Shown here: positions 6,910 to 32,849 of the stretch, in pieces
How the letters are laid out: the number at the start of each line of letters is the position of its first letter
Numbering within the stretch: position 1 is the stretch's first letter
Source of the DNA: Candidatus Woesearchaeota archaeon
Lineage (GTDB): Archaea > Nanobdellota > Nanobdellia > Woesearchaeales > GW2011-AR9
DNA length: 33,890 nucleotides
Direction of reading: 5' to 3'
NCBI GenBank assembly: GCA_018303445.1
Contig: JAGVYE010000048.1
Location: 1-33,890, forward strand
Made by a program: the position numbers and the translations under genes
Notes under the pieces: generated by a model
What the model saw: the letters and a program-made list of their open reading frames with translations, nothing else
Databases searched by the model: none
Told to the model about the DNA's origin: nothing

Positions 6910-8363
6910 TTGATCCAAACCACGAACTTTTCCGCTGGGGACCTATACCGGGAAAACCTATTTATGTTTCTTACTTTATGATTTCTATCACTGAATCATT
7001 TCCTCGTAAATATAAATGTGCGTGCCCGGAAATTTTCTTTTATTTTATTCAAGACAAAATGACATTTATTTGTGATTACCAAGAACTGCGTGATTCTGGT
7101 AAGAAACATTTTTTCTTTTGGATAATGGACGATTCCGAATTAAAAAAAGTGAAGAAGAGCTATAATCTGACTGTGAAGCGTCTTCATAAGATCTACCAAA
7201 AATTAGAGAACTTGGAAAGATTTTCTGATAAAGATTTCTTTCATCTCTTCAAAAAATGGCAGGAAGCATACCTTCTTTTCTGGGATCATGGATTAGTGCC
7301 TGAAGTAGCCAACTGGGGAGGAGAGCAAGTGCTAAAAGATAAGCTAACTGAAATCGGTCTTTCCCAGGAACAATTTATTTTAGCGCTAGAAAAATTAACC
7401 GCGCCTGAAAAGTTGTCCTTCTACCAGGAAGAAGAGTTAGCATTCTTAAAAGTGAAGGAAAAAGAGAATTCAACTGATGAGAAAAAGTATACAACAGCGC
7501 TACGGTGTCATGCACAAAAATATTTCTGGCTGGGAAATAGTTATTATGAAACAATAGTGTTAGATGAAAAACAGTTTGAAGAAAAATTGAAAGAATTGAA
7601 TTGCAAAGATGTAAAAGGAGAAATTGAAAAGATAAAACAAATTCCAAAAAGAGCGAAGGAAGAGAAAAAGAAAATACTACGTGAATTTAACATAGGCAAT
7701 GATATTAAGAAAATTGCGCAGCGTTTAAGTTACTGTATTTGGTGGCAGGATGCGCGGAAAAAACAAATTTTTATCGCCAATCATTACCTTACCCTGTTTC
7801 TTAAAGAAATTAGCAGGCGAAGGAATATTTCTCTTCCTGAACTTCAGCTCTATTGGGGGAAAGAACTGGAGAATCTGTTGCAAGGAAATTTCCTTCCTCA
7901 AAAAGAGATCGAACGACGAAAACAAAAATTCTTGGGACATTATAACACTAGTTTGAAAATTATCTCAAAGGCGAAAGTTTTTGCTGAGTTAGTGAATCCT
8001 TTTATCTATCAGAAAGTTGATGAGAATGTTAAAGAAATTAAAGGAACGGTGGCAAGTCTTGGTTTAGGAAAAGTAAAAGGAAAGGTGAAGATTCTTTTAA
8101 ACCCTAAGGAAAGTGATAAACTCAAGACAGGAGAGATTCTGATTGCTCCTTTTACTTCACCAGAATACATTGTAGCTATGCGAAAAGCAGCGGCGATTGT
8201 GACTGACGAAGGGGGAATGACCTCGCATGCCGCCATTGTCAGTAGAGAGTTGGGTATTCCCTGTATTGTAGGAACAAGGATTGCGACAAAAGTCTTAAAA
8301 GACGGGGATAAAGTAGAAATCAATGCAGAAAAAGGGATAATTAGGAAAATAAAGAATTCTTAG
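6906..8363 (+). CDS. PEP-utilising-enzyme mobile-domain protein, paralogue 2
   Basis: A 485-aa member of the array with the same two-part layout. The helical N-terminal part has TAPEKLSF, KYFW and DARKK motifs in the family order. The C-terminal swivel domain has TDEGGMTSHAA with the catalytic His at 441. The start codon overlaps the stop of paralogue 1 as ATGA (6906-6909), so translation is probably coupled. Its N-terminal 60 residues differ strongly from paralogue 1: the YG-x-x-YW motif is weak and the segment contains a CAC pair. This suggests that the N-terminus is the variable, partner- or ligand-specific part. Confidence 0.85.
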   Translation: MIDPNHELFRWGPIPGKPIYVSYFMISITESFPRKYKCACPEIFFYFIQDKMTFICDYQELRDSGKKHFFFWIMDDSELKKVKKSYNLTVKRLHKIYQKLENLERFSDKDFFHLFKKWQEAYLLFWDHGLVPEVANWGGEQVLKDKLTEIGLSQEQFILALEKLTAPEKLSFYQEEELAFLKVKEKENSTDEKKYTTALRCHAQKYFWLGNSYYETIVLDEKQFEEKLKELNCKDVKGEIEKIKQIPKRAKEEKKKILREFNIGNDIKKIAQRLSYCIWWQDARKKQIFIANHYLTLFLKEISRRRNISLPELQLYWGKELENLLQGNFLPQKEIERRKQKFLGHYNTSLKIISKAKVFAELVNPFIYQKVDENVKEIKGTVASLGLGKVKGKVKILLNPKESDKLKTGEILIAPFTSPEYIVAMRKAAAIVTDEGGMTSHAAIVSRELGIPCIVGTRIATKVLKDGDKVEINAEKGIIRKIKNS

Positions 8364-8936: not shown

Positions 8937-9355
8937 GATTCAAACAAGGTATACGTGAAGGAAGTGTAAGAATTATTACTCCGGATTATATTAGGGCCCA
9001 AAGTCTTTTCAAATCTTCCTTGCAAGCCATCTCTTCAGCAAAAAAGATCGCTTTAGAGACCGATACATTAAAATCCATTCTTAGAGAACTATATGAAGGA
9101 CTGCGACAATATTGTGAAGCTATTGGTTATCAAAGAGGTTATAAATTTTCATCACATGAAGTAATTACCTTGTTTCTGGAGGAAATACTGTCAGATTCCA
9201 AAATAGCTCTCCGATTTGACCGCTATAGAAAGATCAGAAATGGGATTAATTACTATGGTGATGACGTTTCTATAGAAACAGTGAAGGAAGCTCTCGTAGA
9301 GATGCCTTCCCTAATTAAAAATCTTGAGAAATACGTGAAGAAAATAAAGAATTAG
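8933..9355 (+). CDS. HEPN-domain protein, partner of MNT module 2
   Basis: The 140-aa reading begins at the ATG overlapping the MNT stop (8933). The frame is open further upstream, but the coupled start gives a length matching module 1. The signature is RKIRNGINYYG, with R102, N103 and Y107-Y108. As in module 1 the expected HEPN His is Tyr. The last 4 bp overlap the end of the convergent histidine phosphatase gene. Confidence 0.78.
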   Translation: MRFKQGIREGSVRIITPDYIRAQSLFKSSLQAISSAKKIALETDTLKSILRELYEGLRQYCEAIGYQRGYKFSSHEVITLFLEEILSDSKIALRFDRYRKIRNGINYYGDDVSIETVKEALVEMPSLIKNLEKYVKKIKN

Positions 9356-10122
9356 AAACGTCCTTCTATATTTCTCTGTGCTTGATCCCGAAGATGTTTT
9401 AGGTCACCTAAATATATAAGCTTAACCCTTCCTTTTCCTGCAAATTCAAATCTAGGATTTGGGCCTGCAATGACACTTTTAAAGGTGATGAGTTCTCCCG
9501 TAGCATAATTTCCCGGAAAATTTTTGACTATTCTAGGTTGTAAAGTATAAAGAGCTACTGTTTTAAATAAAGCGGCATCTAATGCATCGATAGGCGGGCT
9601 ATGTGTAATTTCAATAACGGCGGCTTTCATCCCTTCTTTCACATAGGGCTGAACGCGTTCAATTCCTTGCACTAACCCATCCAGTAATCCAAAAGCAAAA
9701 GAAGCAAGCACTGGCTGTCGTTCTTCTTTTTGTGGACCCAACCAGAATCCTTCCAATAATTCACAAACATAGTCAGCTTCACTCGAAGCATGAGCATACG
9801 AAGGAACTCCAGAAGCGAGCCAGTTGCAGACAGCTAAACCAATATCTTCTCGCTCTGTATGAGCGGCAGAATGAGGATTATATCCTGCTCCGCTTAAGAT
9901 TTCATGAGCGCTTTCTCTTGCTCGAGCGAAAGGAGAAGTAGTAGTATCAATAACCGCATAACCTGACTTTAGGTTTTCTCTTCCCACCGCTTGCATTTGC
10001 TGTCTTCCACCATCACTGAGACAAATAGCTTTATCTTCTAAAGATCCAGCTAATTCCTCCGCGACTTGACGCTCTTTTTTTCCATGTCGGGAAACTAGCC
10101 CTTCAATAATTCCAGTGGTCAT
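9352..10122 (-). CDS. Histidine phosphatase superfamily (phosphoglycerate-mutase-like) protein
   Basis: With the start at 10122 the protein is 256 aa. It begins close to the catalytic motif SRHGKKE (R12, H13). It continues with TSPFARARESA (R67/R69) and ITHSP with the second catalytic His (H174). These are the marks of branch-1 histidine phosphatases, which form a phosphohistidine intermediate; SixA in the same superfamily removes phosphate from protein phosphohistidine. An upstream extension to 10275 is open, but a minus-strand TTTATAAA box 26 bp before 10122 supports the shorter start. It sits inside the array of phosphohistidine-domain genes, divergent from paralogue 3. Its true substrate is unknown. 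Confidence 0.8.
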   Translation of the reverse strand: MTTGIIEGLVSRHGKKERQVAEELAGSLEDKAICLSDGGRQQMQAVGRENLKSGYAVIDTTTSPFARARESAHEILSGAGYNPHSAAHTEREDIGLAVCNWLASGVPSYAHASSEADYVCELLEGFWLGPQKEERQPVLASFAFGLLDGLVQGIERVQPYVKEGMKAAVIEITHSPPIDALDAALFKTVALYTLQPRIVKNFPGNYATGELITFKSVIAGPNPRFEFAGKGRVKLIYLGDLKHLRDQAQRNIEGRF

Positions 10123-10144
10123 ATGAGTTTGGGAGGGGCATTCA

Positions 10145-10152
10145 TTTATAAA
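10145..10152 (-). promoter_or_regulatory. TATA box of the histidine phosphatase gene
   Basis: On the minus strand TTTATAAA is centred about 26 bp before the ATG at 10122. It fixes the start codon and implies a leaderless transcript. Confidence 0.65.
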
Positions 10153-10223
10153 CTTTTCTCTTTTACTACTATTTAATAATAACTCCCTCGTAGGAATAAA
10201 CACATGATTCCTACCGCACAGCG

Positions 10224-10236
10224 TAAATATTAAAAG
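10224..10236 (+). promoter_or_regulatory. TATA box of the array genes 3-7
   Basis: TAAATATTAAAA is centred about 28 bp before the ATG at 10259. It is the only promoter-like element seen before the run of genes 3-7, which are otherwise joined by overlaps or 1-bp gaps. Confidence 0.5.
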
Positions 10237-10258
10237 CGCCTGCGAGTTATTCAGAAAA

Positions 10259-11017
10259 ATGCTTCCAAAACTCATAACCTACACTCGTGGATTTATTCCC
10301 TTATCACACATCTATTTTATTATAAAAGCTATGAATGAGATGGCATCTGAACTTAATGAAACGAAAGCAAAAATCATTGCCTATGCTCACCACGGAAAAA
10401 AAACATGGTGGAGTTGGAGCGAGCAGGAAATGAACACTCTTGGTAAACTGATTTGGAAAAAAACCGCGACAAAGAAAACCGCCGAAGAACACTTTCAAAA
10501 GATAAGAAGTTTCGCGGAAAAATCCATCGAAACGGCAGAAAAGCTAAGAAAAAAAAATCTGGCCATATTATCCAACGAACAACTGCCAAAAGCGTATCAA
10601 GAGTTTTATGAGAGCTGCAAAGAAGCTCATGCCCTGCTAAACTTTGATATCGACGCCATTGATATTTTACCCGTTGAATTTCTCAAACAAGCAGTACGCA
10701 AAGAGTTATCACCTCTTAAAGAAAATGAGTTTCTCGACATCTATACAAAGCTAACAACGCCCATCCATACTAGTTATGTAAGCACTGAAGAAAAGGCTTT
10801 TTTAGAGTTATTAGAAAGAATGAAAAGTAAGAATGTCCCTCTGAGTACATTAAGAACATCGCCTTTTTACAAAGATTTCCAAAAAATTATCAGCGCCTTC
10901 TGGTGGACTTGTTTGGGCTGGGAAAACAGATTTCTCAAGAAAGAAGAAGATTATATCTCTGATTTAAAAGGTTACGAGCAGAAAGTAAAAGATCAAAGAA
11001 TTTCTTCAGAAGAGTAA
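10259..11017 (+). CDS. Mobile-domain protein paralogue 3, N-terminal fragment (broken gene)
   Basis: This is the helical N-terminal half of a family member: KKTWWSW in place of the YG-x-x-YW motif, then LTTPIHTSY and the following helices. The reading ends early at a TAA in the left arm of a perfect 61-bp inverted repeat. The last seven residues come from the inverted copy. About 50-60 residues found in the other paralogues at this point, including the DxRKK motif, are missing. The fragment has no phosphohistidine domain. The start at 10259 is supported by the TATA box and by the position of family motifs. Confidence 0.75.
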   Translation: MLPKLITYTRGFIPLSHIYFIIKAMNEMASELNETKAKIIAYAHHGKKTWWSWSEQEMNTLGKLIWKKTATKKTAEEHFQKIRSFAEKSIETAEKLRKKNLAILSNEQLPKAYQEFYESCKEAHALLNFDIDAIDILPVEFLKQAVRKELSPLKENEFLDIYTKLTTPIHTSYVSTEEKAFLELLERMKSKNVPLSTLRTSPFYKDFQKIISAFWWTCLGWENRFLKKEEDYISDLKGYEQKVKDQRISSEE

Positions 11018-11129
11018 TATTGTAATTTGTCCATGGGGATATTTGTTCTATTGCTTTTTACTGAAATTAGCAATAGAACAAATATCCCCATGGACAAATT
11101 ACAATATTACTCTTCTGAAGAAATTCTTT
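10995..11129. repeat. Perfect inverted repeat, 61-bp arms and 13-bp loop
   Basis: The arm 10995-11055 is the exact reverse complement of 11069-11129. The right arm is the native coding sequence: it reads EISNRTNIPMDKLQYY, which fits the family. The left arm is therefore the copy. It destroys the reading frame of paralogue 3 and replaces about 150 bp of expected coding sequence. Confidence 0.97.
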
Positions 11130-11617
11130 CCTTCTTAACAGAAAAACGAACCTGGAACGAACCAGACTTTAAGAAACGACAACAAGCGCAATTTATCTTG
11201 TCTGATGAAAAAGGTATTCATCAGTTGAGCGGAGAACAAGCTGAAAAAAAAATCAAAGAATATTATGAACCCGACCATAGCGAAGTAAAAGAAATTAAAG
11301 GCGTTTGCAGTTCCTCCAGGATTGCCAAGGGAAAAGTTAAGATTTGCAATGGTGCAGAGGACGCTCTCCGCAAAATAAAAGAAGGCGATATTCTAGTGAC
11401 GGGAATGACTCTTCCTGATTACGTGCCTTCCATGAGAAAGGCAGGAGCTATTGTCACGGATGAAGGAGGCATAACTTGCCATGCGGCTATCGTAAGTCGA
11501 GAATTGAAAAAGCCATGTATTACGGGAACGAAAAAGGCCACGGAAATTCTTAAAGATGGTGATGTAGTGGAAGTGGACGCGAAGAAAGGCATCATAACTA
11601 TTCTTCAAAGGGATTAA
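11033..11617 (+). CDS. Mobile-domain protein paralogue 3, C-terminal fragment (broken gene)
   Basis: This carries the end of the helical region and a complete swivelling domain: GDILVTGMTLP, TDEGGITCHAA (catalytic His codon at 11480) and PCITGT. The first residues after the ATG at 11033 are encoded by the inverted repeat and loop, so they are not ancestral; family similarity begins at TEISNR. A TTG at 11027 is an alternative start. If translated, it would be an almost stand-alone phosphohistidine domain of about 194 aa. It ends 1 bp before paralogue 4. Confidence 0.75.
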   Translation: MGIFVLLLFTEISNRTNIPMDKLQYYSSEEILSFLTEKRTWNEPDFKKRQQAQFILSDEKGIHQLSGEQAEKKIKEYYEPDHSEVKEIKGVCSSSRIAKGKVKICNGAEDALRKIKEGDILVTGMTLPDYVPSMRKAGAIVTDEGGITCHAAIVSRELKKPCITGTKKATEILKDGDVVEVDAKKGIITILQRD

Positions 11618-11618
11618 A

Positions 11619-13022
11619 ATGTGGTATAAACAAGAAGGCGAACTTGTTCCTTTTACCGCTTGGCCATGGATGAGAACAATAACACGATTATCTCCACAAT
11701 TTAAACTTGATTTTAAGCAGCTGTACGGTTATTTCAATAAAGATTATGGTTGGTTCTATTGGGATTTACAAGCTATGAATGAACTAGCAAAATGGACATA
11801 TGAAACGTATGGAAATTCGATTGAGAAAATATATTTTCTTTTTACGCAAGCTGCGCGTTCTCTCGAAGAGTTGTATCTTTCAACGTACGATGAAAAATGG
11901 CAGAATTTAACGATAAAAGATCTTTTAGAAAAGTATAGTGTAATAGGGGTTACTCATACAAAAATGTGGAGCACAAGCTTGTTCATAGATAGTTTTGATC
12001 CAGGATTTGATCAAGAACAGATAGAAAAAAAAACAAAAGAATTTTCTTTAACGAAAGAGGAAGCTACGGTGTTGGCAACACCTGACGGCATAACATACGC
12101 AAGTGAGCGTCGTCTTGATTTTCTGCAAATAATATTAAAGTTTGATGCCAAACTTTCTGTTCAGCATCCTGAGATTAAGGAACATATTAAACGATATGAT
12201 TACTATCAGTACAGTTATGCTCATCCGCAGCGCATTACCGTAAACCAAATTGAAGAAGAAATAAAAACTGCTCAAAAGAACATACCAAACATCAAAGATG
12301 AGTTTACAAGATTAAATTCTTTTCAAAAAGAACAACAGAATAAAATAAATGAAATTTTAAAGAAGCATAGCTTATCCCAAAACCCCTTTTATTTTTTTCA
12401 GACCTTAACTTACTGGCGTGAACATCGTAAGAAAGTGAATATGATGGGGTGTTATATGCTCCATCGCTTTCTCGAAGTTTTAGAGCTTAAAAGCCGTATT
12501 CCTAAAAGATTTTTAGAATATCTCAACTATGATGAAGTAAAAGGACTATTTTCAGGAAAGATTAACAAAGAGATTTTAAAAAAGCGATATCAAGAAACGA
12601 CACTTCTTAGAATTCAGAGAAGAAACTATACTCTTTACAGCGGATTAGAAGCCAAAGAAAAGAGAAAGGAACTTGAGTCTCAAATGTTAAAAAATGGCGA
12701 TAATCAAATTCGTGGAACAACCGCATGTTGGGGAAAAGTTCAAGGAAGAGTAAAAGTAATCAGGGACAGAAACGACTTTGTAAAATTTCAGCAAGGTGAT
12801 ATTCTTGTAGCCGGAATGACCCGCCCAGAACATGTACCTCTCCTGAAGAAAGCTGCTGCCATTGTAACTAACGAAGGAGGCATAACTTGCCATGCCGCCA
12901 TTGTCAGCAGGGAACTTAATATCCCTTGTATTATTGGCACAAAGGTGGCAACGGAAGTTTTAAAAGATGGCGATCTTGTCGAGGTTAATGCCAATCACGG
13001 CATTGTGAGAAAGTTATCATGA
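11619..13022 (+). CDS. PEP-utilising-enzyme mobile-domain protein, paralogue 4
   Basis: A 467-aa family member. The N-terminal part has YGWFYWD, LATPDGITY, a RYDYYQYSY segment and EHRKK. The swivel domain has GDILVAGMTRP and TNEGGITCHAA with the catalytic His at 425. The Asp of the usual TDEGG is Asn here. The gene starts 1 bp after the stop of paralogue 3 and overlaps paralogue 5 by ATGA. Neither an ATP-grasp nor a PEP-binding domain is present. Confidence 0.85.
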   Translation: MWYKQEGELVPFTAWPWMRTITRLSPQFKLDFKQLYGYFNKDYGWFYWDLQAMNELAKWTYETYGNSIEKIYFLFTQAARSLEELYLSTYDEKWQNLTIKDLLEKYSVIGVTHTKMWSTSLFIDSFDPGFDQEQIEKKTKEFSLTKEEATVLATPDGITYASERRLDFLQIILKFDAKLSVQHPEIKEHIKRYDYYQYSYAHPQRITVNQIEEEIKTAQKNIPNIKDEFTRLNSFQKEQQNKINEILKKHSLSQNPFYFFQTLTYWREHRKKVNMMGCYMLHRFLEVLELKSRIPKRFLEYLNYDEVKGLFSGKINKEILKKRYQETTLLRIQRRNYTLYSGLEAKEKRKELESQMLKNGDNQIRGTTACWGKVQGRVKVIRDRNDFVKFQQGDILVAGMTRPEHVPLLKKAAAIVTNEGGITCHAAIVSRELNIPCIIGTKVATEVLKDGDLVEVNANHGIVRKLS

Positions 13023-14449
13023 ACCAAAAAGAAATCGCCTTTGAACAATTACAGAAAAAATGGTATCCACAGGGCTTTAACTGCACGCCTTTTCTCCTTA
13101 TTCCCCCAGGAAGCAGCGGTTTTGATCTCAAGCCATGCTTAGGAGATACTTTTACTCATTTCCTCTACGAATTTAAGAACGATTTCGGAAAGATGTATTA
13201 CGACCTTGATGAATTAAACCACCTTGGCACGATTGTTCGCTCAAAAATTAAGAAAGATAAACAATTCCTCATAAAAACACGAAAACAATCCGACCTTAAT
13301 TATAGCAAAGCTTTACAGCAGATAAAAAATATCCCCGAGTTACAATGGCCCTCCTTATCAAAAGAAGAATTCCTTTCTCTCATACAGAAAGCTATGTACC
13401 TTCTACGATCTTGTGGTCTTTATGGTCATATTATCGAACCATTTTCTCTTACCACGGATGTGATGATTAAAAACATGCTTTCACAATATGTAAAAGAGCC
13501 CTCTGAACTAAATAAAGTCCTTACCATTATTTCCACACCCACAAAAAGATCTTTTCTTCATGAAATGGAAGAAGATCTCTTTACGATTTCGCAAATAAAC
13601 AACGAAAAAGAAAGGAAACAAAGGATCAAAGAACATCTGGCGCGTTTTTATTGGGTACGTAATACTTATGCCGGCAGAACAAAGCTTACGCTTAAAGATA
13701 TTGAAAATGAACTGAAAACAATTTCATCTAACTTTCATGATTCTGCCAAAATCGAGAAGAAAAGTGAGCTTATACAACAACTAAGATTAAACCCAGAACT
13801 TATTTTGCTGCTCGAAGCTTCCGACTTTATAACTGATTGGCAGGATAAACGTAAGAAAGACATTTTCATCGCCATTGACATCGCTGAAAGAGTGCTAGAA
13901 GAATTATCACAAAGAATTAACATCGAGGTTGCCAATTTACGATATCTTTCGTATCCTGATATTACCCTTTCCTTATTCACTGACAAAACACTGCCACAAA
14001 CTCTCACCGAACGACGTAATGGTGTCGTTTTTTATACCCTACCAGAAAAAGAAATCATCCTTACAGGAAAAGAGTACCTGGAATTCAGAGAAAGAGTAGA
14101 ACGGAAGGAAAAACCAACTCAACAAATCAAAAAATTTAGTGGCCTGACTGCTTCTTTAGGAACGGCAATTGGCCAGGTAAAGGTCTGTAAATTATTATCC
14201 GATATCAGAAAAGTAAAAGAAGGAGATATTCTCGTCACCTCCATGACCAGGCCAGAATTCCTTCCGGCCATGGAAAAGGCTGCTGCGTTTATTACTGACG
14301 AAGGGGGTATAACCTCACATGCCGCAATTTTAGCCAGAGAGATGAAGAAACCTTGTATTATAGGGACAAAAATTGCCACACAAGTTTTAAAAGACGGTAT
14401 GACTGTACAAGTAAAGGCCAATCACGGGCTGATACAGATTATAGAATGA
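13019..14449 (+). CDS. PEP-utilising-enzyme mobile-domain protein, paralogue 5
   Basis: A 476-aa family member with FGKMYYD near the N-terminus, then ISTPTKRSF, RFYWVRNTY and DKRKK. The C-terminal domain has GDILVTSMTRP, TDEGGITSHAA with the catalytic His at 434, and PCIIGT. The ATGA overlap with paralogue 4 (13019-13022) and another with paralogue 6 (14446-14449) show tight translational coupling. The end of the swivel domain is less typical (DGMTVQVKA instead of DGDxVEVxA). Confidence 0.85.
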   Translation: MNQKEIAFEQLQKKWYPQGFNCTPFLLIPPGSSGFDLKPCLGDTFTHFLYEFKNDFGKMYYDLDELNHLGTIVRSKIKKDKQFLIKTRKQSDLNYSKALQQIKNIPELQWPSLSKEEFLSLIQKAMYLLRSCGLYGHIIEPFSLTTDVMIKNMLSQYVKEPSELNKVLTIISTPTKRSFLHEMEEDLFTISQINNEKERKQRIKEHLARFYWVRNTYAGRTKLTLKDIENELKTISSNFHDSAKIEKKSELIQQLRLNPELILLLEASDFITDWQDKRKKDIFIAIDIAERVLEELSQRINIEVANLRYLSYPDITLSLFTDKTLPQTLTERRNGVVFYTLPEKEIILTGKEYLEFRERVERKEKPTQQIKKFSGLTASLGTAIGQVKVCKLLSDIRKVKEGDILVTSMTRPEFLPAMEKAAAFITDEGGITSHAAILAREMKKPCIIGTKIATQVLKDGMTVQVKANHGLIQIIE

Positions 14450-15927
14450 AACCACTCCAAAAAACAATTTCCCTAGCAGAGTTTACCAAGGCGAAAAAGA
14501 TCATTAAAGAAACAGTATGGTATCGACAAGCTACCACAAGTTGTCCGTTGTATATTGGTACGCCATGTATTGGTGTTCTTGATGAATTCACCTATCCAGG
14601 GATTTATGGACAATCCAATGAATTTGAAGGATATTATTCACTTCATGAATTTAATTATCTTGCCAAAGAGGTCATAGAGAAAACAAAAAGGAATACTTCT
14701 TATATCGATGGATATTACAAGAAATTAACAACGATCTTTAACAATGCGAAAAAAATTCTTACAAAAGCAGAAAGCATTGATGTGACAAATAGTAGTCTTC
14801 CCGAACTGGAAAAGTTTGTCCAAGAAGTTGATGATGCCAGTTACCTGATGTGGAATAACTGTTTCCTTGTCGATAAGTTTGATCCTTCGGGTGCAGATCT
14901 CCTAAAAAACGAGTGTATAAAAGCGAATTTAAATCAAGAAGAAATCGATATTCTCGTTCGCCCTCAAAAAATTAATTTTATTGAACAATCAAACGTAGAG
15001 TTACATTCACTGGCTTTACAACTTCAGAAGAAAAACAAACCAGATCCACTCGTTTTATTGAAACCATTTACTGAGAAATGGTTCTTTATTCAAAATAGCT
15101 GGGGAAATGTTATCTTTTTAGAAGCAAAAGATTTTCTGCAATCCATACAAGATCTCATGAAGGAGTCCTCAGAAAGATTGCAAAACGTCATCAAACAGTA
15201 TGAAGATCTTTCTTCCATAACTAAAAAGAAAGTAGACAATCTGTATCTTACACATACAATTTCTCCAGAACTTAAAAATATATTTCATCTCTTTCGTACT
15301 TTAGGTGTGATCCGTGATGAGCGAAAAGAAATTGTTTTACACATTAATCATTTCAATGAGCGAGTAGCTCGTCATCTTGGAAAAGAATTTAAGATTGGGG
15401 TATCGTTATTACGACGAGCTTTACCAAGCGAGTTAGCTCTCCTTACCTCAAAAGGAGAACTTAAGAAACTTCTCCCTCTTCTGCAACAACGAGAAGATGC
15501 CGTCTATCTTCATGGCGTTAGTGTACAAACCATGTTTATTGGAGGAAAAGAAGCAAAAGTTATCATTGAAATGCTTCATGAAAAATTATTACAACATGGC
15601 GAAGAATTGAAAGGAATTATTGCCTGTAAAGGAAAAATGACGAAAATTCGTGGGCGTGTAAAGATCATCCTAGGAGAAACACACTTTAGTAAGTTTGAAG
15701 ATGGCGATATTCTTGTTGCTCCTATGACCAGGCCGGAATATGTGCCATTAATGAAACGTGCTAAGGCTGTTATTACAGATGAAGGTGGTATCACCTGCCA
15801 TGCTGCCATTATCAGTAGGGAATTAAATATTCCCTGCATTATTGGTACAAGCGTTGCCACAAAAAAACTCTTTGACAACCGGGAAATCGAAGTAGATACG
15901 GAGAAGGGAAAGATTACCTTAATTTAA
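14446..15927 (+). CDS. PEP-utilising-enzyme mobile-domain protein, paralogue 6
   Basis: The frame is open upstream to 14353, but the ATG at 14446 overlaps the stop of paralogue 5 as ATGA. It gives 493 aa, in line with the family, so it was chosen. Motifs: EFEGYYSL near the N-terminus, LVRPQKINF, KWFFIQNSW and RDERKE. The swivel domain has GDILVAPMTRP and TDEGGITCHAA with the catalytic His at 452. The KDGD of the other members is replaced by FDNRE near the end, a local divergence away from the active site. Confidence 0.84.
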   Translation: MKPLQKTISLAEFTKAKKIIKETVWYRQATTSCPLYIGTPCIGVLDEFTYPGIYGQSNEFEGYYSLHEFNYLAKEVIEKTKRNTSYIDGYYKKLTTIFNNAKKILTKAESIDVTNSSLPELEKFVQEVDDASYLMWNNCFLVDKFDPSGADLLKNECIKANLNQEEIDILVRPQKINFIEQSNVELHSLALQLQKKNKPDPLVLLKPFTEKWFFIQNSWGNVIFLEAKDFLQSIQDLMKESSERLQNVIKQYEDLSSITKKKVDNLYLTHTISPELKNIFHLFRTLGVIRDERKEIVLHINHFNERVARHLGKEFKIGVSLLRRALPSELALLTSKGELKKLLPLLQQREDAVYLHGVSVQTMFIGGKEAKVIIEMLHEKLLQHGEELKGIIACKGKMTKIRGRVKIILGETHFSKFEDGDILVAPMTRPEYVPLMKRAKAVITDEGGITCHAAIISRELNIPCIIGTSVATKKLFDNREIEVDTEKGKITLI

Positions 15928-15928: not shown

Positions 15929-17485
15929 ATGAGAGATTGGGCACTTTTACAACGAAAAACGCACTGTTATGTGACACCCTTTATTGAACAGATAGGGAAA
16001 GTTTTTGCGAAATCTGTAGAACGGGTATGGTTCGAAAAATCATTTCATGAATGCCTCGTGTACTACCAAAAAGGTGTTATGCACTGGTACGGAAGGAAAA
16101 AAATTGTAGGAGACACCTTCCATTATATTTCAAAGAAGATTATAAAAAACCCATCTTATAGAAAGGAAATCCATACTCTTTTTGAAAAGAAAATCAAGAA
16201 GTTATTATTACTTTCAGAAAAAATTAGAAATGAAAAATTAGCGTCTTTTTCTGGTCAACAGCTCTGGCAACTTTACAAAAAATATATTGATTTATATGAA
16301 GAAACATATATTTACAGTGAACCTCTTCCCTTAGCCACGAGTGAGGCAGTTATAGAACATCTTAGGAACGAGCTTGCAAAGAAAATCCCGGATAAGAATC
16401 AAATCAATGAATTGATGACGACACTTACAACACCAAAAGAAAGATCATTCATCAGAAAAGAAGAAGAGGATTTTTTAAAATTAGCAAGAGAAATCCAGAA
16501 TGATAAAAAAGTACTAACTATTTTTCGAAAGTATAATTCCATTATTCTTAGAAAAAAAATCGAAAAGAGAGGAATTTTTCATCAGATCGAAAAGCATTAC
16601 GAGAATTATTGCTGGATTCCTTATGATTATGGTGTGATAATCTGGGATTTACCCTATTTTCTCACTTCTTTGCAAAAGACCGTTTTAAAGAGTAATACCA
16701 AAAATGAATTAAAGAAGAAAAAAGTTGAACACCAAGAATTAGAAAAACGACAGAATGAACTAAGTGAAAAATATAACCTCTCTGCGAAGATAAAAAACTT
16801 ATTCATATACGTACAATGGGCTACTTACATGATGGATTACAAAAAAGAACTCTTTACAAAATCCCATTATTTGGTTATTCCTTTAATTGAAGAGTTGGCC
16901 AGAAGAGCTTTCACGACTAATATTCTGGTACGTTTTATGCGTCATGAAGAAATCAAAGAAATGCTTCTTCAAGACAAGGCCCTATCACAAAAAGAGTTAG
17001 AGCAACGTTATCAGAATAGTATTCTTGTTTGGGATAAGGAAGGAGCAACACGATTTATGGGCGATAAAGAAAAAAAGAAATTTATTCGAGAAAACGTAGA
17101 AGAGAAAGAAGAAACAACAAAAGTAACGAAGATTTATGGTGTCTGTGCTAGTGTAGGAAAATGTAAAGGAAAGGTGAAAGTAGTGCGAAGTGCCATGCAC
17201 GTCCTTAAAGTAGAAGAAGGAGATATCTTGGTAGCACCTATGACTTCCCCCGATTACGTCATTGGGATGAAAAAAGCTGCGGCCATCATTACTGACGAAG
17301 GAGGCTTAACCAGTCATGCCGCAATTGTCGCGAGAGAATTGAAAATACCTTGTGTTGTAGGAACGAAAAATGCGACTAAATTATTGAAAGATGGAGATAT
17401 CGTAGAAATTAACGCCAATCACGGGTCCATAACAATTGTGAATTCTGCCCGAAAAACATTTTTAAACCATAGTCAATACCCCTAG
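15929..17485 (+). CDS. PEP-utilising-enzyme mobile-domain protein, paralogue 7
   Basis: The longest member, 518 aa, starting 1 bp after paralogue 6. Motifs: VMHWYG near the N-terminus, LTTPKERSF, YCWIPYDYG (very close to the motif in archaeal PEP-synthase-like proteins) and MDYKKE in place of DxRKK. The swivel domain has GDILVAPMTSP and TDEGGLTSHAA with the catalytic His at 463. About 13 extra residues follow the domain. They overlap the promoter of the acyltransferase gene, so the tail may be non-functional. Confidence 0.85.
   Translation: MRDWALLQRKTHCYVTPFIEQIGKVFAKSVERVWFEKSFHECLVYYQKGVMHWYGRKKIVGDTFHYISKKIIKNPSYRKEIHTLFEKKIKKLLLLSEKIRNEKLASFSGQQLWQLYKKYIDLYEETYIYSEPLPLATSEAVIEHLRNELAKKIPDKNQINELMTTLTTPKERSFIRKEEEDFLKLAREIQNDKKVLTIFRKYNSIILRKKIEKRGIFHQIEKHYENYCWIPYDYGVIIWDLPYFLTSLQKTVLKSNTKNELKKKKVEHQELEKRQNELSEKYNLSAKIKNLFIYVQWATYMMDYKKELFTKSHYLVIPLIEELARRAFTTNILVRFMRHEEIKEMLLQDKALSQKELEQRYQNSILVWDKEGATRFMGDKEKKKFIRENVEEKEETTKVTKIYGVCASVGKCKGKVKVVRSAMHVLKVEEGDILVAPMTSPDYVIGMKKAAAIITDEGGLTSHAAIVARELKIPCVVGTKNATKLLKDGDIVEINANHGSITIVNSARKTFLNHSQYP
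17459..17466 (+). promoter_or_regulatory. TATA box of the acyltransferase-led gene group
   Basis: TTTTTAAA inside the last codons of paralogue 7 is centred about 26 bp before the ATG at 17489. The downstream group can therefore be expressed apart from the array. Confidence 0.6.
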
Positions 17486-17488: not shown

Positions 17489-18583
17489 ATGAAAAGCTAC
17501 ATTAAAGAAGCTGTACAACAATTACAGCAATCTTCTAAATTAAAGAAAGAGATAGAACTCAAAAATCCCAACGATTACAAAAAGAACTTTCTTCGTATCT
17601 CCTATAACAAACTCCTTTTCTTCCTCCAAACCAGAATAGTTCCTTCCCACTTTAAAAACTGGCTTCTCAGAACCTCGGGAATGAACATCGGCGATGATGC
17701 CTGCATCCCTCATTATATTAAGTTCGATCCCTATTTCCCTGAATTAATTTATCTCGAAAAAGGTTCTTTGGTAGGCGGACTATGTACATTAGTCACCCAT
17801 AAAATAGAAGGAAACAAGCTTCTTTTAGGAAAAGTCATTTTAGAAGAAAGAACCATGATTGGTGGAGATTGTATTATGTTCCCCGGGTCAAAAGTAAGTA
17901 AAAAATCTCTGCTCATGTTCTTTTCAGATTTAAATAAAGTTATCCCCGAAGGCGAATTATGGGGAGGAAAACCAGCTCAAGGAGTGAAAAAGTTCTCGTC
18001 AGAAGAAATCGAGAAGTTCTTCGCTCTATCAAAAAATGATTCTGAGTATTACAAATCCTTTAAAAAAAAAGTGCGAGAATTTCTTCATGATCCTACAAAA
18101 ACATATTTAAAAATTCAGTATAACGGAAAAAGATTAACAGCTGGAAATGATTGGTGGCGTGCCCGGAATATGATCCGTATCTTCTGGAATGGAGGCATCA
18201 CCGAAATTACTCGTCCCTTGCCTCATTGCAGGTTAAAAACAACACTTCTGCGTCTCGCTGGCATAAAGATCGGAAAGAACTGCCATATTGGCAAAGGTGT
18301 TATCTTTGACCATTTATTTGGAGATAATGTTACGCTAGAAGACAATGTAACTTTAGGAGAAAATGCCTATCTTGACGGTCATGAATATACTACTACTCAA
18401 ACTATTTTCGGCAAAACCGTTATAAAAAAAGGAGCCCATATTAAACACCATGCTTTTATTAGAACTGGCACTATTATCGGAGAAAACACGATTATCGAAC
18501 CATTTAGTGTTGCCCAGCGTGAAATTCCCTCCAACGAAATATGGGGTGGAAATCCGGCTGTGTTCCTAAAAAAGAAGGCCTAA
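17489..18583 (+). CDS. Fused double hexapeptide-repeat (left-handed beta-helix) acyltransferase
   Basis: A 364-aa protein with two LbH acyltransferase-like units in tandem. Unit 1 (about 58-168) has GMNIGDDACI, the FDPYFPELI segment typical of sugar and serine O-acetyltransferases, a candidate catalytic His (H104 in LVTH), and ends in GELWGGKPAQ. Unit 2 (about 246-360) repeats the pattern with GIKIGKNCHI, DGHEYT (H298), GTIIGENTII and NEIWGGNPA. A helical linker joins them. Such enzymes move acetyl or other acyl groups from CoA to hydroxyl or amino groups. Acceptors are unknown. Downstream lie a hydrolase and a phosphotransacetylase, so acyl chemistry is a shared theme. Confidence 0.82.
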   Translation: MKSYIKEAVQQLQQSSKLKKEIELKNPNDYKKNFLRISYNKLLFFLQTRIVPSHFKNWLLRTSGMNIGDDACIPHYIKFDPYFPELIYLEKGSLVGGLCTLVTHKIEGNKLLLGKVILEERTMIGGDCIMFPGSKVSKKSLLMFFSDLNKVIPEGELWGGKPAQGVKKFSSEEIEKFFALSKNDSEYYKSFKKKVREFLHDPTKTYLKIQYNGKRLTAGNDWWRARNMIRIFWNGGITEITRPLPHCRLKTTLLRLAGIKIGKNCHIGKGVIFDHLFGDNVTLEDNVTLGENAYLDGHEYTTTQTIFGKTVIKKGAHIKHHAFIRTGTIIGENTIIEPFSVAQREIPSNEIWGGNPAVFLKKKA

Positions 18584-18595
18584 AAAGGGGATGAA

Positions 18596-19684
18596 ATGAA
18601 AGTACTATTATTTCTACTTCATGTAGAAAGTCATGGAAAAAAAAGAAATGAGAAAAGTTCTAACGCCTCTTCAGGTAAGCCAACTGTTTCTTACTTCGAT
18701 TACAAAACAGGAAATAAAGTCGATACTGATTTTGCAAAGTTGCAGCATGAACTGGCGCCGAAACGACACCAAGCCCCTTCTCGCCCTGGTCTTGGCAAAC
18801 TGGTTAGCGCCGCTATAAACAATGTAAAAAACGTCGCCGTGAATGCTTTTGACAACACCGTTGGTTATGGTATTGCCCAATATCAAAATTATCAAACCAG
18901 AAGAGAGCTCAAAAAGAGTCCTAAGACTGATAAGTATATGACTGTCCACATTCCAGGACTATTTCAAAATATCGGCTCGCAATGGCGTTTTGCCAAATTG
19001 GAGCGGCAAAAAGGAAGATTGCCATATCACGTCCATCCTCATAATGAGCTTCATAAGGCGGAAAGAGAAGCTGCCGCACGAGCACAACTTGATGACCTCA
19101 AAAAACTAACTGGTGCTAATCCCTACAAAATTGTGAGCGGCCATAGCGATGGAGCCGCTCTCGCCATAGGATTAGCTCAGGATAAAAAAACAGTTGAAGA
19201 GCATAAGATAGCATACGTCCAAGCCAGAGCCCCTTCCGCTCATGGCACGATAAAACTAGACTCCCTAGGAAAAAGACTCCTTATTCCTTTAGCTCCCAAT
19301 GATAACGTTCATAAAAATATTTATGCTCGGAAAGGAGCAGTAGAAAACGCCTCTAAGAAACCATACGTTCCTGTTGATGTCGTAGCAGGAGAATATGATG
19401 CCTTAGCTACGCCGAGAGATGCTGTATACAAAAATGCTCGGGCTCATTATCTAGTACGAGGGAAAGATTCCACTCATTTTGGCACTAGCGGAGTAAATAG
19501 TAAAGTTAATCAAAGTTTTTCCGAACACATTGACGATTTGGTTAAAGAACATCAGAGTTCTAAAACGAGAGAATCAGGAAAGCCTGGAACCATGTACGTA
19601 GCTAAGTCTTATGGTGTTAAACCATACCAAGCCGCAAATGATGAATCGACGACCCATAAATATAAAAAAGCCGCTCACCATTAG
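18596..19684 (+). CDS. Alpha/beta-hydrolase-fold protein
   Basis: A 362-aa protein with a plausible catalytic triad in order: nucleophile elbow GHSDG (182-186, S184), acid D268 in AGEYDALATP, and H294 in STHFGTSG. HIPGLFQN (118-125) could supply the oxyanion hole. The first 60-70 residues are low in structure and very basic or polar. A GGGG ribosome-binding site ends 5 bp before the ATG at 18596; the nearer ATG at 18591 is out of frame and closes at once. The gene lies 12 bp after the acyltransferase, with which it is probably cotranscribed. Substrate unknown; lipase, esterase and thioesterase are all possible. Confidence 0.7.
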   Translation: MKVLLFLLHVESHGKKRNEKSSNASSGKPTVSYFDYKTGNKVDTDFAKLQHELAPKRHQAPSRPGLGKLVSAAINNVKNVAVNAFDNTVGYGIAQYQNYQTRRELKKSPKTDKYMTVHIPGLFQNIGSQWRFAKLERQKGRLPYHVHPHNELHKAEREAAARAQLDDLKKLTGANPYKIVSGHSDGAALAIGLAQDKKTVEEHKIAYVQARAPSAHGTIKLDSLGKRLLIPLAPNDNVHKNIYARKGAVENASKKPYVPVDVVAGEYDALATPRDAVYKNARAHYLVRGKDSTHFGTSGVNSKVNQSFSEHIDDLVKEHQSSKTRESGKPGTMYVAKSYGVKPYQAANDESTTHKYKKAAHH

Positions 19685-19691
19685 CTAAAAC

Positions 19692-20684
19692 ATGCCCAAT
19701 TCTCTTCTTTCTATAATGAAAAAAATAGCTAGAAAAAAGCCTGTGAAGATTCTTGTGTGCGAAGGCTGGGATGAACGGTGTTTGCGAGCTTCTGCTGAAA
19801 TTTTAAAGAAAAAAATAGTTAAGATTGTTTTGTTAGGAAACAAACCGGAAATAACCAAACAGGCAAAGAAACTAAAAGTCGATATCTCAAATGCTGAAAT
19901 GGTTGATTATAAAAAATTTAAAGGAAAAGAGAAACTAGTGAACAAATTAGTAGAACTTCGTAAACATAAAGGTATTACCACGGAAGAAGCGCGGAAACTT
20001 CTCGAGGATGAAAATTATTTTGGTTGCATGTATGTCCTTGCTGGATACGCCGATGGATTAGTGGGATCAGCAATTTGCCCTACCGCCGCCTTAATGCGTC
20101 CTGCTTTACAACTTCTCCGCCAGCCGGGAAAAATTGTCAACGAAGTTTCAATTGTCAAAGTTCCCCAGAAAAAAAATCAAATTTACTTTGTGAGTGATTG
20201 CAGCCTTAACATTAATCCTTCCGCAGAAGAACTCGCGCAAATTGCCGTGAATACAGCTTCAGTAGCGCGTACATTTAAATACAACTCCAAAGTAGCTTTT
20301 CTTTCCTATTCAACAAAAGGAAGTGGAGGAGATGGAGAAGATCTTCAATTAATTCGTAAAGCCGTCGAAATAGCTCAAAAACAAGATCCTCAAAGCGTGT
20401 ATGAGGGAGAGATGCAAGTTGATGCTGCCGTTGACGTCAATGCCGCAAAGAGAAAATGTCCCCATGCCAAGATTAAGGGAGATGCCAACGTCCTTATCTT
20501 TCCCAATTTAATGGCCAGCAACATTCTTACCCATGCCCTAATGCGTTTTTCTGATGTAACGTTCTATTTTACCATTCTTAAAGGCATGCAAAAATCTGTT
20601 GGCATCTTAGGTAGAAGTACTCCCATGGAAGTCGTGAGAAACATCATCATCAGCGTCGCCATGGAGGCTAATAGTCATGATTAA
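19692..20684 (+). CDS. pta: Phosphate acetyl/butyryltransferase (Pta family)
   Basis: Interconverts acyl-CoA plus phosphate and acyl phosphate plus CoA. Family marks are EGWDERCLRA near the N-terminus, ICPTAALMRPAL, VAFLSYSTKGS, EGEMQVDAA and NVLIFPNLMASNI, all in the usual order of the PTA_PTB domain; the length of 330 aa is usual. No acetate kinase is seen in the window, so whether acetyl phosphate feeds ATP synthesis here is open. The gene begins 7 bp after the hydrolase and overlaps the HAD gene by 8 bp. An internal Met at residue 9 is an alternative start. Confidence 0.87.
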   Translation: MPNSLLSIMKKIARKKPVKILVCEGWDERCLRASAEILKKKIVKIVLLGNKPEITKQAKKLKVDISNAEMVDYKKFKGKEKLVNKLVELRKHKGITTEEARKLLEDENYFGCMYVLAGYADGLVGSAICPTAALMRPALQLLRQPGKIVNEVSIVKVPQKKNQIYFVSDCSLNINPSAEELAQIAVNTASVARTFKYNSKVAFLSYSTKGSGGDGEDLQLIRKAVEIAQKQDPQSVYEGEMQVDAAVDVNAAKRKCPHAKIKGDANVLIFPNLMASNILTHALMRFSDVTFYFTILKGMQKSVGILGRSTPMEVVRNIIISVAMEANSHD

Positions 20685-21273
20685 GTTGATTATCTTCGAC
20701 TTTTCTGACGTTTGCTTTAGTTTAGAAGAACCTCCCTTTTTGCAAAAGTTCGCCCGAGAACACCATCTATCATATCCAGAATTTGAAGCAGCTTATATGG
20801 AATTACTCAAGAAAGCCGAAGTAGGAGAAGATACCGGAATAAACTTATGGGAGAAAATTCTAAGAAAATATAACCTAAAAGGAGACCCGCAACAGATTAT
20901 TAAAGAAATGATGGACATAAAATATGCCTATCAAGATATTCTTAATCTCACCCAGAAATTACATCAGAAGTATAAAACAGCCTATTTTACAAACTATAAT
21001 GAAGACTACTGGAAACATATTGAACAGAGATTCGATCTCAAACCATACTTTGACTTTGGTGTTGTTTCATTTCAAGTAAAATCAAGAAAACCAGAAATTC
21101 ACGGCTTTAAAGTCATTTTAGACCATTTTAATGTTAAGCCAGAAGAAACTGTATTTATTGATGATTCAGCAAAAAATTTAGTTGAACCTGGAAAAATAGG
21201 AATTCATATCATTCTCTTTCAGAATAAAGAACAATTGGTAGAAGAATTAAGGAAAAGAAAGATAACTATTTAA
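20677..21273 (+). CDS. HAD-superfamily hydrolase-like protein (subfamily IA)
   Basis: A 198-aa protein with HAD motifs in order: FDFSDV (nucleophile D8), FTN (T105), K138 in SRKPE and FIDDS (D162, D163). The second Asp of the usual DxD, which acts as acid/base in phosphatases, is Ser here. Members with changes at this site include haloacid dehalogenases and enzymes of altered activity, so simple phosphatase action is not assured. It overlaps the end of pta by 8 bp and should be coupled to it. Confidence 0.75.
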   Translation: MIKLIIFDFSDVCFSLEEPPFLQKFAREHHLSYPEFEAAYMELLKKAEVGEDTGINLWEKILRKYNLKGDPQQIIKEMMDIKYAYQDILNLTQKLHQKYKTAYFTNYNEDYWKHIEQRFDLKPYFDFGVVSFQVKSRKPEIHGFKVILDHFNVKPEETVFIDDSAKNLVEPGKIGIHIILFQNKEQLVEELRKRKITI

Positions 21274-21331
21274 TAGAATTACAAGCTTATAAGGAGTTCT
21301 CTTGTTGTACCCAGCACATTTAAAGATAAAA

Positions 21332-21339
21332 CTTATAAG
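21332..21339 (+). promoter_or_regulatory. TATA-like palindrome before the second HAD gene
   Basis: CTTATAAG is centred 33 bp before the ATG at 21369, giving an expected leader of about 7 bases. The same octamer occurs at 21286-21293. Confidence 0.4.
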
Positions 21340-21368
21340 TAGTGACAATTTTTAAGAAAAAGTTGAGA

Positions 21369-22004
21369 ATGAAAAAGCTTAAGCTCTATGATTGGAACGG
21401 CACGCTTGTTACTCTAGATGGGCTTCGTGCCTACTTCGAAGAGCATCATGCTCAACTATGGCATGAATACAAAATCTTAGGGGATAGAGACCCTGAACTT
21501 AAGAAAAAACATCTTCCGAGAATGATGGAGCTAGTCGAATACGCTACTCAAAACGACTTATACCCTGTTAATGTCATGCCCAGGGCCGTAGAAAGACTTC
21601 AAGCAGATCAAACAGAAGGATTTAGAAGGGTTGTTTTCACAAGTATATCACGTGAACTGTTAAGAAAACAGAGCCGTGAGTTGGGCATTGCCAATCTTGT
21701 TGATGAAGTAATAACCCTTGAAGATATGAAACAAGAATTTGGTTTAGAAGGAGTAACAAAAGAAAGTCCTGAAACATACCAAGCTTTAGTTCAATTTTTA
21801 CAACAACATAACTTAGGAATTTGTGAAACATATACAGATGATGGAAAGCCTCGTATAATTACTGCCGTAGAAGTAAATAGAATGTTCGCAGAAAGATCCT
21901 TACCGGGACTAGGAAGATTATACTTACTTGATCCAAAAGCAAAAGAATCTCTTATGGAACAACCAGGATATAAAGTTATTAACAACCTTCAATTAGTAAG
22001 GTAG
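21369..22004 (+). CDS. HAD-like hydrolase-fold protein
   Basis: Starting at the ATG at 21369 gives 211 aa with the motif-I strand right at the N-terminus (LYDWNGTLV, D8), as is usual for HAD proteins. A GTG at 21342 is possible but sits too close to the TATA-like box. Other motifs: FTS (T91), K131 and a late TDDGKPR (D157, D158). Motif I is DWNGT, with Asn in place of the second Asp. Eukaryotic-type and archaeal HAD proteins with DxNGT motifs exist, but the substrate cannot be read. It ends 4 bp before the eighth mobile-domain gene. Confidence 0.65.
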   Translation: MKKLKLYDWNGTLVTLDGLRAYFEEHHAQLWHEYKILGDRDPELKKKHLPRMMELVEYATQNDLYPVNVMPRAVERLQADQTEGFRRVVFTSISRELLRKQSRELGIANLVDEVITLEDMKQEFGLEGVTKESPETYQALVQFLQQHNLGICETYTDDGKPRIITAVEVNRMFAERSLPGLGRLYLLDPKAKESLMEQPGYKVINNLQLVR

Positions 22005-22008
22005 AAAC

Positions 22009-23331
22009 ATGCCATATACCAAATGGGCCACACGATTAAGCGCTGTAATAAGAGAAGTGCCTCTTGCCCTCTATTTAAATCAAAAAGGATTAAAACGCTT
22101 TCTCAGCGTGCCTGTTGATCAACTATACTCTGAATTTTATGTTGAAAAGGAATCATTTCAAGCTGTTCTACGGGGCCATATGAAAGAACTGTGGAAAAAT
22201 CCAGATTTATACACTAACGAGTATGAAAAAGCAGCACAATCGCTGATCGAAAAAGCAAAAAGAGTTTATCGCGCCATTAAGGGTGACCGAGCTATTCTAT
22301 GGGAAGCCTATGAACAGTACTATCAAGAGAAAATCAAATATGGTTTCTATTTCGTTTCAACCTTCTCTATAGAAGAATTCATCATTCCAAAACTAAGTGA
22401 ATTATTTCCAAACGAAATAATTATGATTACGTCGCCAGACAAACCATTCTCTTTTCAAATTATGAAGAAAGAACTTCTAAAAAGATCAGTGTCAGAAGTA
22501 CAAAAGGAATTTGGCTGGTTGAATGTCTATAATTACCATGATGGAGATTATCCTGTTTCCTATTTCGCTGAAATGAAGAGAGATTTAAAAGAATACGAAG
22601 TTAAAGATATCTTTGAAAATCTTGATAGAAATAAACAAGAGTTCACGACCTTCATCGCCACAATTCAGGATCAAAATCTAAAACGGGACTGCATCCTTGC
22701 CCATCAATGCGCTTTTATTAAAACTGATCGTGTTGATCGATGGAAACGTGCTATGCCGTATATACGAGAGATGTTAAAAACTATCACCAATGAAACTGAA
22801 GGCTGGACGATGTTAGAGATAATCAATCTTACTCAGGAAGAATTAAAAAACGTTGTTCTTCACCAAAAATACCCTTTGTTAAAAGAAGTGCAATTGCGTT
22901 CACAAAAAGAATGCCTTTTTAATATTCAAGATAGCAAACTATCATTTATTTACGATAAAAACGAAATCCAAAAAATGAAACAACAATTAACACCACAAGA
23001 CGCTCCAGAAATTTCAAATCTGCAAGGTGTCATCGCCTCTCCAGGCAAGGCAAAAGGAAAAGTTATCATCGTGAGAGGAAAACATGACCTTGCCAAAGTG
23101 AAAGAAGGAAATGTTCTTATTGCCACTTATACCATTCCAGATTACACTCCCGCCATGAAAAAAGCAGCCGCGATTATTACCGAAGAAGGCGGCTTAACCT
23201 CCCATGCCGCCGTTATTTCTCGGGAATTGAGAAAACCATGTGTGATGAACATTCACAACGCCACGAAAACATTTAAAGATGGCGAATGTGTGGAAGTCGA
23301 CGCAGAAAAAGGAATTGTAAGAAAAGTATAA
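22009..23331 (+). CDS. PEP-utilising-enzyme mobile-domain protein, paralogue 8 (divergent)
   Basis: A 440-aa relative of the array members, about 5 kb downstream of them. The helical N-terminal part is shorter and the DxRKK motif is replaced by DRWKR. The swivel domain keeps the catalytic His (H399 in TEEGGLTSHAA) and the GNVLIATYTIP lead. However, TDEGG is TEEGG, and the conserved GT after IPC is lost (PCVMNIHNAT). The protein may still be phosphorylated but has changed at two surface positions near the His. It lies 4 bp after the HAD gene and so belongs to the same operon. Confidence 0.82.
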   Translation: MPYTKWATRLSAVIREVPLALYLNQKGLKRFLSVPVDQLYSEFYVEKESFQAVLRGHMKELWKNPDLYTNEYEKAAQSLIEKAKRVYRAIKGDRAILWEAYEQYYQEKIKYGFYFVSTFSIEEFIIPKLSELFPNEIIMITSPDKPFSFQIMKKELLKRSVSEVQKEFGWLNVYNYHDGDYPVSYFAEMKRDLKEYEVKDIFENLDRNKQEFTTFIATIQDQNLKRDCILAHQCAFIKTDRVDRWKRAMPYIREMLKTITNETEGWTMLEIINLTQEELKNVVLHQKYPLLKEVQLRSQKECLFNIQDSKLSFIYDKNEIQKMKQQLTPQDAPEISNLQGVIASPGKAKGKVIIVRGKHDLAKVKEGNVLIATYTIPDYTPAMKKAAAIITEEGGLTSHAAVISRELRKPCVMNIHNATKTFKDGECVEVDAEKGIVRKV

Positions 23332-32844: not shown

Positions 32845-32849
32845 GATCT

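Follow-up and report, generated by a model that had tools for sequence, protein, structure and literature searches.

A conserved archaeal gene cluster that links acyl-type enzymes to an array of putative two-component dikinases

The DNA stretch analysed here (the window) is 33,890 nt of a Candidatus Woesearchaeota genome (contig JAGVYE010000048.1; genome of 1.22 Mb in 54 contigs, 95% complete). It carries an array of mobile-domain (phosphohistidine) genes, the last of which closes a six-gene group (17489-23331) that also encodes a double left-handed beta-helix (LbH) protein, an alpha/beta-hydrolase-like protein, a phosphotransacetylase (PTA)-like protein and two HAD-family proteins (HAD1 and HAD2). 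Judged from sequence and from analogy with characterised enzyme pairs, these genes probably form one functional cluster whose core is a set of two-component small-molecule dikinases. In this scheme an ATP-grasp (PPDK_N) subunit, the product of a separate gene on another contig, would load the beta-phosphate of ATP onto the histidine of the swivel domain, and one such subunit would charge many mobile-domain proteins. Each of these would pass the phosphate to a different substrate held in its own helical domain, and the LbH, hydrolase, PTA-like and HAD proteins would then acylate, deacylate or dephosphorylate the products or intermediates.

The six genes (Table 1) are separated by 12 and 7 bp, an overlap of 8 bp, 68 bp (GTG start at 21342) or 95 bp (ATG start at 21369), and 4 bp. 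The sequence-only reading had described six genes on one strand with mostly short gaps and a longer one, of 95 bp, before the second HAD gene only; the coordinates of the open reading frames (ORFs) bear this out for the ATG start. It had also called the closing gene the eighth of its kind, which agrees with the eight PF00391 matches in the window, although one of them, at 11027-11617, falls in a broken gene.

The acyl-type genes are linked to arrays in other genomes as well. A PTA search of 352 genomes of the order gave matches at 124 places in 120 genomes, and 107 of these places were examined (7 plus 100 newly fetched; the other 17 were not fetched), with flanks of about 6 kb or less that are often shortened by contig ends. 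Acetate kinase (AckA) lies within about 6 kb at 57 of the 107 loci, array genes at 26, neither at 24 and both at none; a phosphoenolpyruvate (PEP)-synthase-like gene with its own ATP domain, present in three AckA loci (L185, L208 and G026), was not counted as array. Among the newly fetched loci, LbH genes occur at 13 of 23 array-linked versus 0 of 54 AckA-linked loci (Fisher p = 6e-9) and the hydrolase at 11 of 23 versus 0 of 54 (p = 2e-7), with both genes at 10 of the 23. HAD1 and PPDK_N genes were each found within the same distance at 5 array-linked and 2 AckA-linked loci.

We looked for scattering of the genes in close relatives. Within the family, a PTA match occurs in the window's genome and in G007, of a different genus, alone, and the genes stand together in both. 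The order in G007 is ABC transporter, eRF1, array, double LbH (61% identity to the window protein), hydrolase (56%), PTA-like (55%) and HAD1 (51%), followed by a split mobile-domain gene, a histidine-phosphatase homologue on the other strand and an SprT-like gene (66%; named by eye); HAD2 is absent from this cluster. Because of the shared order in G007 and the enrichment relative to AckA-linked loci, the link of the acyl-type set to the array is beyond chance. Farther away, at PTA-anchored loci (LbH and HAD genes apart from PTA were not searched for), the gene order recurs in several families in a looser form. The succession double LbH, hydrolase, optional HAD and PTA is found in L188, L202, L203, L217 and L230 as in the window, and L202 runs through two array genes, HAD1, double LbH, hydrolase, a HAD gene (named by eye from its DxDDT motif), PTA, an array gene and PPDK_N. 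In L194 and L232 an LbH gene is on the opposite strand.

Gene fusions also connect the two parts. A HAD1 homologue in G004 is fused to two mobile domains, as confirmed by Pfam, and in G033 and G171 the ATP-grasp subunit contains an inserted hydrolase of a second family, which three other PTA/array loci encode on its own (match to the insert at hhalign probability 99.3). Assignment of the G033 insert to the hydrolase family of the window was rejected, as direct hhalign comparisons were not significant (E 0.28 and 0.077); the two families are weakly tied (probability 69). A HAD2 homologue in G036 sits directly before two array-type genes. The earlier suggestion that the set joins the array in one pathway thus stands as far as membership goes, through collinearity with G007, recurrence in several families and fusions, and we infer a shared pathway from these links.

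PF00391 has 16 matches in the genome, half of them in the window, and 12 to 18 mobile-domain matches per genome occur in 4 (the window's own among them) of 40 searched genomes, a few of these matches sitting in complete PEP-synthase-like genes. In the mobile-domain proteins of the window, PF00391 is the only match at E 0.001 and no ATP-grasp domain was found. A profile of ten array proteins matches solved rifampin phosphotransferases (RPH) over positions 138-483 (E about 2e-29). The predicted model of the 15929-17485 protein (pLDDT 77, pTM 0.76) matches RPH by Foldseek (best E 4.5e-14) and superimposes on 5fbt by VIA-align with Z 24.4 and an rmsd of 4.9 over 417 residues; other RPH entries reach Z 14.5 to 24.2. 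Because of these profile and predicted-fold matches, the mobile-domain proteins look like RPH without its ATP-grasp domain. The catalytic swivel histidine is kept in all 147 aligned array-type proteins, which were picked by a mobile-domain profile. The network round the phosphate of RPH includes Arg666, Glu667 and Lys670 (PMC4844700). The stretch that aligns with them in the array proteins is D-x-R-K, a phosphate-site motif only partly conserved in the same 147 proteins (D in 99, R in 115, K in 105). A stand-alone PPDK_N gene (314 aa; G000:C23:12850-13773) lies outside the window and is followed by a mobile-domain gene. PPDK_N is present in 25 of the 26 genomes with an array-linked PTA, in 20 of the 26 within an ORF of at most 480 aa.

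This architecture resembles that of HpeHI, for which such a division has been characterised and in which HpeI is the ATP-grasp subunit and HpeH carries the substrate-binding and swivel parts; the two-component dikinases treated in that account are pairs in aromatic catabolism (PMC12167813). As in HpeHI, CreHI and PpsAB, the array system has a substrate-binding and swivel chain apart from the ATP-grasp subunit, with the catalytic histidine in GGxx(S/C)H, and it combines an RPH-like substrate domain, a C-terminal swivel domain with its histidine and a separate ATP-grasp subunit. On the HpeHI precedent, phosphotransfer would take place between separate subunits. Unlike those pairs, about 15 mobile-domain frames stand here against one recognised stand-alone ATP-grasp gene, and the array is linked to LbH, hydrolase, PTA-like and HAD genes. 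RPH-Lm (5FBT) shares the helical substrate domain and C-terminal swivel domain, the fold match covering residues 356-867, whereas RPH is a single chain with its own ATP domain that acts on rifampin. The models of the prodigiosin ligases PigC and RedH score on the PPDK_N and mobile-domain parts, but far under their cut-offs, and these ligases are single chains. A defence system found no support, although a missing match does not prove absence: PADLOC gave no match for the eight cluster-type proteins submitted and hit only the MNT-type gene at 8400 (PDC-M05A). No description of such arrays appeared among the matches listed from open-licence PMC papers.

Several observations weigh against a single dikinase-based cluster. 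Of 16 other genomes with array-type proteins, 13 yielded no PTA match, and every one of the nine titled as candidate-phyla bacteria is among these; a match came from L102 (array type), L137 (corresponding to the AckA-linked G316, L256) and L107. LbH and the window-type hydrolase are both missing within about 6 kb at 9 of the 23 newly fetched array-linked loci, so the set is modular. AckA is also present in 5 of the 26 genomes with an array-linked PTA, 3 of which carry a second PTA match, and one of the 26 (G235) has no PPDK_N match at 1e-20. The D-x-R-K motif is not universal and is missing or shifted in the 22009-23331 protein. The idea that each array holds a single copy of each mobile-domain type was dropped, since permutation gave P 0.06 to 0.72, not beyond chance.

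The PTA-like protein (PTA_PTB, 290 bits) stays under the cut-offs of the PTA models (TIGR00651, 259.9 of 311.2; PRK09653, 271.9 of 310). All 27 array-linked PTAs (26 plus L102) fall into one clade, together with two near contig ends (at most 0.7 kb), with a support of 1.0 and no AckA-linked member. The M. thermophila enzyme is reported to use Asp316 to deprotonate CoA and Ser309 to stabilise the substrate, and its CoA-holding residues include Tyr282, Lys283 and Cys312 (PMC9706017); these numbers were placed on our sequences by matching residues and spacing rather than by a residue-by-residue alignment of the M. thermophila chain. AckA-linked PTAs (n = 56) have Ser309 in 56, Asp316 in 50 (Glu in 5, Asn in 1), Tyr282 in 55, Lys283 in 56 and Cys312 in 55. 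The array-linked PTAs have Gly in place of Ser309 in 26 of 26, Asp316 in 2 of 26 (Glu in 2), Cys312 in 0 of 26, Tyr282 in 0 of 27 and Lys283 in 2 of 27 (His in 25), and keep Arg310 in all 26 readable cases; in the window protein, Tyr282 and Cys312 are both replaced by Thr. The protein is thus like Pta in family, Arg310 and overall sequence, and unlike a Pta that works with acetate kinase in its lost Ser and nearly always lost Asp, its changed CoA contacts, its separate clade and the lack of an adjacent AckA. Because the catalytic Ser and, in nearly every case, the Asp are gone, along with most of the residues that contact CoA, ordinary acetyl-CoA/acetyl-phosphate chemistry by the array-linked PTAs appears doubtful. 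Phosphotransbutyrylase is also described as having no Asp316 (PMC9706017), so the loss of this residue alone does not prove inactivity.

Acetate-kinase-type metabolism was rejected as the default, since AckA adjoins none of the 26 array-linked PTAs and gave no match in 21 of the 26 genomes that hold them. The lack of an AckA match in most of these genomes, the linkage of PTA and LbH genes and the retained Arg310 would accord with an array that replaces acetate kinase by making acyl phosphates, which the PTA turns into acyl-CoA for the LbH protein. We regard this as unlikely in view of the substitutions at five active-site positions and the sub-threshold model scores, and no member of this dikinase family is known to us to act on a carboxylate. 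The acyl-CoA and acyl-phosphate chemistry named in the sequence-only reading rested on this same protein and finds no support as worded.

The LbH protein is a hexapeptide protein (Hexapep 47.9 bits, cut-off 27), and both of its halves match an LbH profile that was built partly from these halves. Ten homologues from linked loci share 51-62% identity (one, 32%), with His104, His275 and His298 invariant. Its best NCBIfam model, heptaprenylglyceryl phosphate O-acetyltransferase, is reached far under the cut-off (102.9 versus 300), which leans weakly towards a lipid. The hydrolase-like protein has no Pfam match at 0.001 (its one hit is Lipase_3 at 0.012, under the cut-off), and Abhydrolase_1 matches 4 of 13 family members at E up to 0.1; the family profile matches alpha/beta hydrolases and esterases in the PDB (E about 2e-4). 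Across the 13 sequences, GHSxG (GHSDG in the window protein) and TH294 are invariant and D268 is nearly so, giving a GxSxG/Asp/His set with the Asp in most. A sample of 371 genomes of the phylum contained the family in 15, every one of them in the window's order. HAD2 may be a separate addition to the cluster.

The two-component layout and the nearby phosphatase-type HAD and hydrolase genes would also suit scavenging catabolism of the HpeHI or phenylphosphate synthase kind, in which each array protein traps a phenol or alcohol for breakdown by phosphorylating it. A Pfam scan of the 30 window proteins revealed no carboxylase, oxygenase or ring-cleavage family, and we give this possibility little weight. 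Slightly less weight still goes to a set of RPH-like detoxification kinases that inactivate different antibiotics or xenobiotics, with the LbH protein as an antibiotic acetyltransferase. Over the whole chain no solved structure comes closer than RPH, RPH genes are reported from candidate-phyla bacteria (PMC8651080), and the LbH protein scores weakly on the Vat and CatB models. These scores lie far under the cut-offs (46.9 versus 300 and 35 versus 350) and below that of the lipid acetyltransferase model, the ATP domain is not fused, and types conserved across families together with a collinear PTA-hydrolase-HAD set fit a pathway better. That the neighbours are unrelated genes lying by chance beside a duplicated family is very improbable: HAD2 outside the G007 cluster, the MNT/HEPN-type pair and opposite-strand gene that interrupt the array, and the nine loci without LbH and hydrolase would suit it, but the 26 array-associated PTA loci among 107, the absence of LbH and hydrolase near 54 AckA-linked PTAs and the HAD1 and hydrolase fusions already contradict it for LbH, hydrolase and PTA, not for HAD2.

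For the dikinase-based cluster, our guess is that it makes a small metabolite or lipid that is both acylated and phosphate-activated, and that acetate metabolism is not involved. A bolder version, which we put forward tentatively and think has only a small chance of being right, is a phosphohistidine assembly line in which one ATP-grasp kinase charges a row of swivel modules, each activating or joining one building block, while the LbH, hydrolase, PTA-like and HAD proteins serve in loading, release and tailoring. Single frames in relatives with one ATP-grasp and up to eight swivel domains would then be the covalent form of the same machine, and such a system would add a further modular route to small molecules beside nonribosomal peptide synthetases and polyketide synthases. 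Very small archaeal genomes here hold many mobile-domain proteins, and an altered version of a common metabolic enzyme within a conserved array set points to an undescribed multi-step pathway. The data name a protein group, its separate ATP partner and a PTA subfamily with a sharp sequence signature, which makes the function testable with a few purified proteins.

Array-type proteins also occur in candidate-phyla bacteria, and mobile-domain types are common to different phyla; the clade of the 13019 type has 14 members on 13 contigs (two members from G007), including the Nealsonbacteria locus (support 0.99). This locus (Candidatus Nealsonbacteria, L098:1-21413) is an array outside the archaea. 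Its eleven mobile-domain ORFs, of which some are short or cut off, are accompanied by a PPDK_N gene and a histidine phosphatase, and no acyl genes were recognised in it. A phosphohistidine phosphatase could belong to the array system, as a histidine-phosphatase-like gene lies inside the array of the window, His_Phos_1 is found in the Nealsonbacteria array too and a homologue in G007. Given the lack of a PTA match in 13 of 16 genomes and the confinement of the hydrolase family to the order in the genomes sampled, the acyl group looks as if it had been added to the array system within this order of archaea. One record titled Aminicenantes (L102, JAFCCF010000047.1) has an array with an array-type PTA, and the same contig position recurs in a genome of the window's order; the title is probably wrong. 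Long frames occur in a record titled Woesearchaeota (L107:6236-17521; 3761 aa, one PPDK_N and eight mobile domains), in G028 (2815 aa, five mobile domains) and in G029 (2013 aa, PPDK_N and four).

Several window genes carry a TATA-like box at -30/-31, a position that fits leaderless archaeal transcripts. A matrix trained on seven window genes finds a box at -30 before the LbH gene, which was outside the training set, but none before either HAD gene. With some 22 further starts tested, this is modest evidence that the acyl group has a transcript start of its own. A single transcript over the whole cluster seems unlikely because of this box and because HAD2 is absent from the G007 cluster and precedes array-type genes in G036.

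Table 1. Coordinates of the cluster genes and related features in the window (MtPTA, M. thermophila PTA numbering).
Feature	Position	Strand	Basis or remark
Mobile-domain protein 1	5431..6909	+	
Mobile-domain protein 2	6906..8363	+	50% identity relatives in G007 and in G033 (another family)
Histidine-phosphatase-like gene inside array	9352..10275	-	Homologue adjoins cluster in G007
Mobile-domain gene 3, broken (10259-11017 and 11027-11617)	10259..11617	+	Compared with intact G007 homologue
Mobile-domain protein 4	11619..13022	+	
Mobile-domain protein 5	13019..14449	+	
Mobile-domain protein 6	14446..15927	+	Likely start 14446, not 14353
Mobile-domain protein 7	15929..17485	+	Predicted fold matches rifampin phosphotransferase 356-867
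TATA-like box about 30 bp before LbH start	17457..17468	+	Matrix; score equalled or exceeded at 0.21% of window positions
Double LbH (hexapeptide) acyltransferase-like protein	17489..18583	+	Hexapep PF00132, LbH profile, homologues
Alpha/beta-hydrolase-like protein, family without clear Pfam model	18596..19684	+	GHSxG, D268, TH294; PDB profile matches
PTA-like protein, array-linked clade	19692..20684	+	PTA_PTB, clade, residues (Ser309 to Gly, Lys283 to His, Asp316 to Val; MtPTA)
HAD-family protein 1 (HAD1)	20677..21273	+	HAD_2; homologue fused to two mobile domains in G004
HAD-family protein 2 (HAD2)	21369..22004	+	HAD 28.4 bits, cut-off 27; GTG at 21342 possible
Mobile-domain protein 8, helical substrate-type domain and swivel domain	22009..23331	+	PF00391 92.5 bits; catalytic His present

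Relative to the intact G007 homologue, gene 3 lacks about 60 residues, among them the D-x-R-K stretch; in G007 the split gene is the last mobile-domain gene. Two nucleotidyltransferase-domain genes with small partners lie at 4489-5410 and 8400-9355, the second pair interrupting the array; the partners, which gave no family match, we take to be HEPN-like. The ABC exporter upstream of the array, present in G007 too, is not counted as part of the cluster: a search at 1e-10 of the 23 newly fetched array-linked loci, with flanks of about 6 kb or less, gave no homologue. The cluster lies between eRF1- and SprT-like genes in the window and in G007, and in G307, of another family (L236:3778-5626), these two stand side by side next to it, which suggests an old location of the cluster. 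The window further encodes an eIF5A-like gene besides eRF1 and a histone-like ORF (assigned by eye), a combination that marks the DNA as archaeal. An asparaginase-type ORF (24694-25224) comprises the N-terminal domain only (176 aa) and is possibly truncated, and a thioredoxin-reductase-like sequence, recognised by eye on the reverse strand (31953-32931), is split into two overlapping frames by a frameshift or an assembly error.

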